The notes under the pieces are model-generated. The model searched no databases and was not told where the DNA came from. It saw only the letters and a list, made by a program, of their open reading frames with translations. A program made the position numbers and the translations under genes. Positions 34,343-35,344 of a stretch of 35,929 bases of DNA are shown here, piece by piece. Positions within the stretch are counted from its first letter, which is position 1, and the number at the start of each line of letters is the position of its first letter. The DNA comes from Kiloniellaceae bacterium (GTDB lineage Bacteria; Pseudomonadota; Alphaproteobacteria; Kiloniellales; J153): positions 1-35,929 of the forward strand of contig JAJFGI010000393.1 in NCBI GenBank assembly GCA_021776215.1, written 5' to 3'.

Positions 34343-34414
34343 TGGCTAATTTAGCCATACATGTAAAGATGTCGTGGGTCTTTTAGCCATGTTTTTTTGT
34401 GGCTATTTAAGCCA
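34343..34414. promoter_or_regulatory. Three operator-like dyads between cro-like and cI-like genes (OR-like)
   Basis: TGGCTAATTTAGCCA 34343-34357; TGGGTCTTTTAGCCA 34375-34389; TGGCTATTTAAGCCA 34400-34414. Confidence 0.82.
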
Positions 34415-34424
34415 AGCTATTGCA

Positions 34425-35051
34425 ATGACAAACAGAATCGAACATCTGCGCCTTGCAAAACAATGGTCGATGGCACGGTTGGCCGAAGAGGCTGACACAG
34501 ATGCCTCAACCATCAACAAGCTCGAAAAGGGAAAAACGAAGCTGACAACCGATTGGATCAATCGATTGTCAACGGCTCTCGGCGTTCAGCCCACTGCGAT
34601 TATTGCGGAAGCGCCGCCACCGGAACCAATTTACGTTCGCGGAAAAGTTCAAGCCGGCAGTTGGTCGGAAGCGCTGGAGTGGGAACAAAGCCGCCGATAT
34701 CCCGTCTGGGTGCCCATTCCGGATCAATGGAAGCCACTGCCGAAGTTCGGCCTCGAGGTGCACGGGCCTTCGATGAACCGGAAATACCCCGAGGGCACGG
34801 TCCTAGTCTGCGTCGGCATTCTAGACGCCGATATCGAACCCAGGGAAGGCCAACGCTATATCGTCCAGCGCGAAAGCCACGGCGAGTTCGAGATGACCGT
34901 CAAGGAACTGAAACTCGACCAACAAGGCCGACCCTGGCTGTGGCCGGACTCCGACGATCCGGAGCACCAGCAACCGTTGTCCGCCAATGGCGACGATGGC
35001 GACACCGTGCAAATCTTGGCGATTGTCATTACGTCAGTTCAACCTGAGTAG
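34425..35051 (+). CDS. CI-like repressor, XRE HTH + S24 peptidase
   Basis: MTNRIEHLRLAKQWSMARLAEEADTDASTINKLEKGKTKL...; KVQAGSW; VHGPSMNRKYPEGTVLVCVG (Ser); FEMTVKELK (Lys). Confidence 0.93.
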   Translation: MTNRIEHLRLAKQWSMARLAEEADTDASTINKLEKGKTKLTTDWINRLSTALGVQPTAIIAEAPPPEPIYVRGKVQAGSWSEALEWEQSRRYPVWVPIPDQWKPLPKFGLEVHGPSMNRKYPEGTVLVCVGILDADIEPREGQRYIVQRESHGEFEMTVKELKLDQQGRPWLWPDSDDPEHQQPLSANGDDGDTVQILAIVITSVQPE

Positions 35052-35095
35052 TAACTGGCGGCAAAGCCTGCAGCTGGTGGCACGACCGGCTCCAC

Positions 35096-35185
35096 CTACC
35101 GTCCTGCCATCCAGATCGCATACAGCCCAAACACAATTCCAAACGCGCTCAATCCGAAGATAAGCATCAATTCGTAAGTCGTCAT
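35096..35185 (-). CDS. 29-aa single-TM membrane peptide
   Basis: MTTYELMLIFGLSAFGIVFGLYAIWMAGR*; perfect AGGAGG SD 8 nt upstream; below ORF-track cutoff. Confidence 0.65.
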   Translation of the reverse strand: MTTYELMLIFGLSAFGIVFGLYAIWMAGR

Positions 35186-35265
35186 TCATTGATCCTCCTA
35201 TGATCAATTAGTACGAATCACACGATTTTTTCCGTCGTATCAGTTCTGAATTGCTCGACCAAGTT

Positions 35266-35344
35266 AGGCCGATTCAGCCACAAATTGCGACGTTGTGGCT
35301 TGACTAGCCATTTTTCTACTTTACAGTTATGGCTATTTAAGCCA
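35266..35344. promoter_or_regulatory. OL-like operator cluster and sigma70-like promoter
   Basis: AGGCCGATTCAGCCA 35266-35280 (weak), TGGCTTGACTAGCCA 35296-35310, TGGCTATTTAAGCCA 35330-35344 (identical to the 34400 site); TTGACT-N16-TACAGT at 35300-35327. Confidence 0.75.

Follow-up and report, generated by a model that had tools for sequence, protein, structure and literature searches.

The window analyzed here is an entire contig (C327; 35,929 bases) from an assembly of 435 contigs and 3.85 Mb. PHROGs matches reveal a tailed-phage genome or prophage that encodes a terminase large subunit, portal, head protease, and major head protein, together with tape measure, tail fibres, primases, and several DNA methyltransferases. 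At least three methyltransferase-like genes are found in the leftward region of this 36-kb phage contig (25132-31011, minus strand). The control region is located at the right end of the contig and contains a CII-like gene, a Cro-like gene, the repressor gene, and an early operon. The CII-like regulator (32769..33239, minus strand; PF06892, 5.3e-8; phrog_101, 1.7e-19) lies in the leftward, PR-side early region. The Cro-like protein of 105 aa (34015..34332, minus strand) gives weak HTH_3/HTH_31 matches, below Pfam cut-offs, and has homologues at the same position in related loci, in which its C-terminal motif is kept; its gene diverges from that of the repressor across a multioperator control region. 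As read from the sequence, the first early rightward ORF spans 35383..35745 on the plus strand. A start at 35383, which has GGAG at 35371-35374, is preferred to one at 35344 because the latter would precede the predicted beginning of the transcript. Only 0.6 kb of the PL operon is on the contig, and the integration genes are therefore out of view.

The repressor (34425..35051, plus strand; 208 aa) has the composition of a CI-family protein, an N-terminal HTH DNA-binding domain and a C-terminal S24 autoprotease-type domain, with Pfam matches to HTH_3 (7.7e-8) and Peptidase_S24 (3.2e-11) that are both above cut-offs. It matches the PHROGs transcriptional repressor family phrog_4 at 6.3e-16, and the 434 repressor is among the profile matches of its HTH domain. 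In an alignment of three homologues, from the window, Nostoc phage Nsp-JY10, and an Agrobacterium salinitolerans phage-like plasmid, the cleavage-site pair A77-G78, S116, and K160 are invariant; these are the residues that a LexA/CI-type autoprotease of the S24 family is expected to have. The recognition segment of the window repressor is TDASTINKLEKG.

Five copies of one operator word, TGGCT-N5-AGCCA, flank this gene, four perfect and one near perfect, with three sites between cro and cI and two on the other side of cI, such that the same word is repeated in both early control regions. On the right, the OR1-like site TGGCTAATTTAGCCA (34343..34357) is a perfect dyad within the PR core promoter, the OR2-like site TGGGTCTTTTAGCCA (34375..34389) has one mismatch, and the OR3-like site TGGCTATTTAAGCCA (34400..34414) is perfect and adjoins the cI start. 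On the left are the perfect OL2-like dyad TGGCTTGACTAGCCA (35296..35310) and the OL1-like dyad (35330..35344), also perfect, which lies within the PL core promoter and is the same 15-mer as the OR3-like site. The first-pass annotation had placed dyads at these five positions, 34343, 34375, 34400, 35296, and 35330; it had also called the 34400 and 35330 sites identical and put the spacings at 25-34 bp, and both statements hold (32 and 25 bp on the right, 30 and 34 bp on the left, centre to centre). The additional weak left site that it listed (35266..35280) carries two mismatches and is at chance level, with 15 two-mismatch matches in the window against about 14 expected at up to two mismatches, and is not regarded as an operator. 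When the cI flanks were scanned de novo with all 5-mer half-sites and spacers of 3-8, TGGCT-N5 came out on top with a score of 13.5, compared with a maximum of 4.5 in 100 dinucleotide-preserving shuffles. In the whole 3.85-Mb assembly the perfect word occurs eight times, four of them at cI; the other four exact copies are considered background, as there are 11 copies of a reversed control pattern.

Peptide-pattern searches that started from the window repressor sequence alone brought up no relatives among IMG/VR or GTDB contigs. A profile search from the three-member alignment returned 38 IMG/VR loci and 14 genome loci, 10 of the latter being close Hyphomicrobiales relatives. As these are the close relatives that carry a name, the host of the window phage probably belongs to the Alphaproteobacteria. 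In 30 loci, the window included, the 5-N5-5 scan score was at least 7.5 and was reached by at most 1 in 100 shuffles. In the grid common to these about 30 loci, sites precede the repressor ATG at about -85, -50, and -25, the last two being the positions of the OR2- and OR3-like sites of the window, and an operator pair 34-36 bp apart lies 0-850 bp after the repressor gene. In a search of the window constrained to this grid the score is 12, and a grid match is found in none of 1000 shuffles of the flanks. For counting, the loci, among them the weaker L010, L045, and L068, were grouped at 80% identity, which gave 20 clusters. Of the 54 upstream sites in the 19 clusters that do not contain the window, 48 are no more than 3 bp away from -85, -50, or -25, compared with 13.5% if sites were uniformly placed. 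A few loci lack one site or show other spacing (L073, L049), and the OR1-OR2 spacing of the window, 32 bp, itself departs from the usual 35. Some relatives have no resolved grid, among them the best-matching viral locus (L028), and several of the grid-less relatives differ in HTH domain or gene order. In L082, a repressor locus at greater distance, an AGGCG-N4 dyad family scores 13.5, and spacer length may therefore vary between subfamilies. Repressors related to those of Hyphomicrobiales phages are also present in phages labelled cyanobacterial, namely Nostoc phage Nsp-JY10 (L005), Pseudanabaena phage Pan3 (L006), and Synechococcus phage Ssp-JY40 (L100), whose true hosts may be alphaproteobacteria living with cyanobacteria.

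In the window the segment between cI and PL, the position of rex in lambda, contains a 29-codon ORF, MTTYELMLIFGLSAFGIVFGLYAIWMAGR (35099-35185, minus strand), that is preceded by a strong AGGAGG and is convergent with cI. Its product is apparently a single membrane-spanning peptide and is reminiscent of small peptides of the holin-like or type I toxin kind; no relative was found in Pfam, PHROG, phage records, or near genomes. In L005, L031, L043, L048, L051, L080, and L092 the corresponding slot measures between 0 and about 850 bp. It is frequently occupied in relatives by unrelated cargo ORFs, of which many run antisense to cI and some begin like signal peptides or lipoproteins, and the end operators stay on the grid.

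To locate the early promoters, PR and PL of 28 loci, the window and 27 relatives, were aligned by anchoring on the operator. In all 56 promoters a TTGACA-like -35 ends 3-6 nt before the operator, and in 55 of the 56 it matches TTGACA at five or more of six bases, compared with about 21% of shuffles. The operator thus anchored lies inside the -35/-10 spacer and the -10 overlaps its end, and hence operators overlap the core of both early promoters. In the window this arrangement corresponds to a PR (34339..34367, minus strand) composed of TTTACA (34367-34362), N17, and CATAAG (34344-34339), and a PL (35320..35348, plus strand) composed of TTTACA (35320-35325), N17, and CATGAA (35343-35348), the last a weak -10. 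The combination TTTACA-N4-operator, present at PR (34367-34343, minus strand) and PL (35320-35344, plus strand), is found nowhere else in the 3.85-Mb assembly even when two mismatches are allowed.

This placement of PL differs from that of the first-pass annotation, in which a TTGACT-N16-TACAGT promoter overlapped the 35296 site and ended beside the 35330 site. These hexamers are indeed present (TTGACT at 35300), and as a real PL they would put OL2 over the -35 and OL1 just downstream of the -10, with 9 of 12 bases matching consensus. Chance alone, however, would give about 0.7 such matches in the region, the OL2 half-site and its 5-bp spacer together make up TTGACT, TACAGT overlaps the -35 of the PL proposed here, and in 27 of 27 aligned relatives the PL -35 is positioned 3-6 nt before OL1, which in the window puts it at 35320-35325 and OL1 between the -35 and -10. 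Since the aligned promoters and the TTTACA-N4-operator arrangement of the window place the promoter elsewhere, TTGACT-N16-TACAGT is most likely a coincidence; as a promoter assignment it is probably wrong, and we regard its being the functional PL as improbable. With PL and PR positioned by the alignment, the cro ATG lies 10 nt beyond OR1, a distance that is similar in most relatives. The predicted PR start falls at or next to this ATG, which suggests that cro is probably translated from a leaderless transcript. At the cI promoter, PRM, the TAGCG and TGTCG groups of relatives have a TATAAT-like hexamer that overlaps OR3 near the cI ATG, as a PRM would. In the window the positions of OR2 and OR3 would fit a PRM that is activated and repressed by CI, but, unlike these groups, it shows no clear PRM -10 or -35.

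The relatives differ in the operator word they place on this grid. The words include TGGCT, TAGCC, TAGCG, TGTCG, TGGCG, TCGCA, TATCC, ATACC, and TACCC; for example, the Nostoc phage Nsp-JY10 locus has the same anatomy with TAGCG-N5-CGCTA and the Agrobacterium element locus with TGTCG-N5-CGACA. Distance between words correlates with distance between recognition segments (r 0.53), and the correlation persists after removal of whole-protein distance (partial Mantel r 0.42, 3 of 5000 permutations), with the caveat that one and the same scan supplied the words and that the clusters are not fully independent. A blind test bears on the same relationship. A search of IMG/VR for pairs of TGGCT-N5-AGCCA dyads separated by 21-39 bp, using no protein information, gave 10 stretches, of which one is a repressor locus, L092 (IMGVR_UViG_2558860983_000002). 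The HTH domain of its repressor is 47% identical to that of the window and the recognition segment is identical, while the C-terminal half retains only 34 identities with the 144 residues of the window protein. Sites are found at 5359, 5394, and 5419 (35 and 25 bp apart) and at 6948 and 6983 (35 bp apart), and the called ATG is 16 bp further from the sites than in other loci. The same helix thus accompanies the same word in a different protein body. The nine other stretches have no related repressor and were treated as unrelated; three of them (L089, L091, and L093) are near-identical and have a T run after the first dyad.

These data also bear on which protein the dyads serve. The cro gene adjoins the OR sites and is conserved together with the grid, and the dyads could in principle be mainly sites for the Cro-like protein, with CI binding elsewhere or to only some of them. 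In lambda, CI and Cro use the same operators; use by both proteins is expected here too and is compatible with CI binding to these operators. Against a mainly Cro-directed function, the word tracks the CI recognition helix and L092 shares both helix and word, and we judge such a function improbable. That the dyads are terminators or RNA hairpins and not protein-binding sites can be dismissed almost entirely: though a listing of terminator-like features includes 35295-35311 with its T run, 5-bp stems are weak, the sites sit inside promoters upstream of genes, and within a locus the half-site word changes jointly at several sites, with spacer and grid unaltered.

Collectively, the protein families, the conserved grid, the covariation with the helix, and the blind match strongly support the lambda-like OR/OL architecture and the operator word that the first-pass annotation had proposed. 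We conclude that the locus is very probably the immunity region of a temperate phage, with a lambda-type OL/OR switch in which a CI-like repressor acts on 15-bp operators. The dimeric repressor probably binds the TGGCT-N5-AGCCA sites. OR1 is located in the spacer of PR, which would serve the leftward genes on the side of cro and CII, and OL1 in that of PL, which would serve the rightward early operon; given these positions, repressor bound at both would exclude RNA polymerase. The OR2 and OL2 sites, 32-34 bp upstream, suggest paired and probably cooperative occupancy, and looping may contribute. OR2 and OR3, on either side of the cI promoter, probably determine both the activation and the negative autoregulation of cI. 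Upon DNA damage, self-cleavage of the S24 domain would release both early operons and the phage would be induced.

Beyond this one locus, we consider it somewhat more probable than otherwise that the window represents an undescribed and widespread phage-switch family, probably of Alphaproteobacteria, that is characterized by a rigid operator/promoter grid, by concerted change of word and helix, and by HTH domains and operators that can be exchanged independently of the S24 domain. This last feature is suggested by L092, which shares the helix and word and little of the C-terminal half. If the grid is kept while word and helix change together, immunity groups should be assignable from sequence. 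The operator words are readable from sequence alone, since the layout is shared by dozens of related phages in which the word changes with the recognition helix. The analysis thus provides a concrete, testable predicted operator for a phage that is represented only in a metagenome-like assembly, and a general route to operators and immunity groups in phages for which published in silico searches failed. With about ten pairings of helix and operator word on a single scaffold, the set also offers natural data for a recognition code of repressors and operators as well as for orthogonal repressor-promoter pairs in laboratory strains.

No description of this operator family was found in the open papers searched. 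Among temperate phages of Alphaproteobacteria, BiPBO1 is one for which an in silico operator search did not predict operators (PMC4729917), and the operators of phiLM21-like prophages are reported as not identified (PMC12429752). Sinorhizobium phage phiLM21 (L098) itself has a related S24 domain and a different HTH domain. It contains a TAGCG-N5-CGCTA pair, TAGCTTTTATCGCTA and TAGCGATTACCGCTA, 35 bp apart at 535 and 570 bp after the repressor, together with a two-mismatch site at -83. In the grid-constrained search such a pair arises in none of 1000 shuffles, while in the unconstrained scan, where phiLM21 is unresolved, its score was reached by 24 of 200 shuffles; the promoter match is poor and these are therefore only candidate operators. 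Rhizobium phage 16-3, as cited in PMC12429752, is a temperate alphaproteobacterial phage with a C repressor, left and right operators (oL1, oL2, oR1, oR2), and PL and PR; it differs from the window in its repressor and in the three right operators of the latter. Phage 16-3 was absent among tblastn matches of the window repressor (E 1e-5) in a phage collection that included it. Further counterparts are the A. salinitolerans phage-like plasmid NZ_CP109971, Nsp-JY10, and the IMG/VR relatives, whose operators are likewise not described in the open papers searched. They share the gene order and operator grid and encode full-length CI homologues of about 40% identity, and differ in words (TGTCG, TAGCG) and recognition helices. 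With phage lambda, the window shares divergent cI and cro genes, multiple dyad operators on both sides of cI, operator-covered PR and PL, a CI composed of HTH and S24 autoprotease domains, and a CII-type gene on the cro side. Lambda operators are 17-bp sites about 24 bp apart. In contrast, the window has 15-bp 5-N5-5 operators on a 35/25 grid, two clear OL sites, a cro predicted to be leaderless, and a CII of the CP76/phrog_101 type. The switch is of a known kind and has a new immunity specificity.
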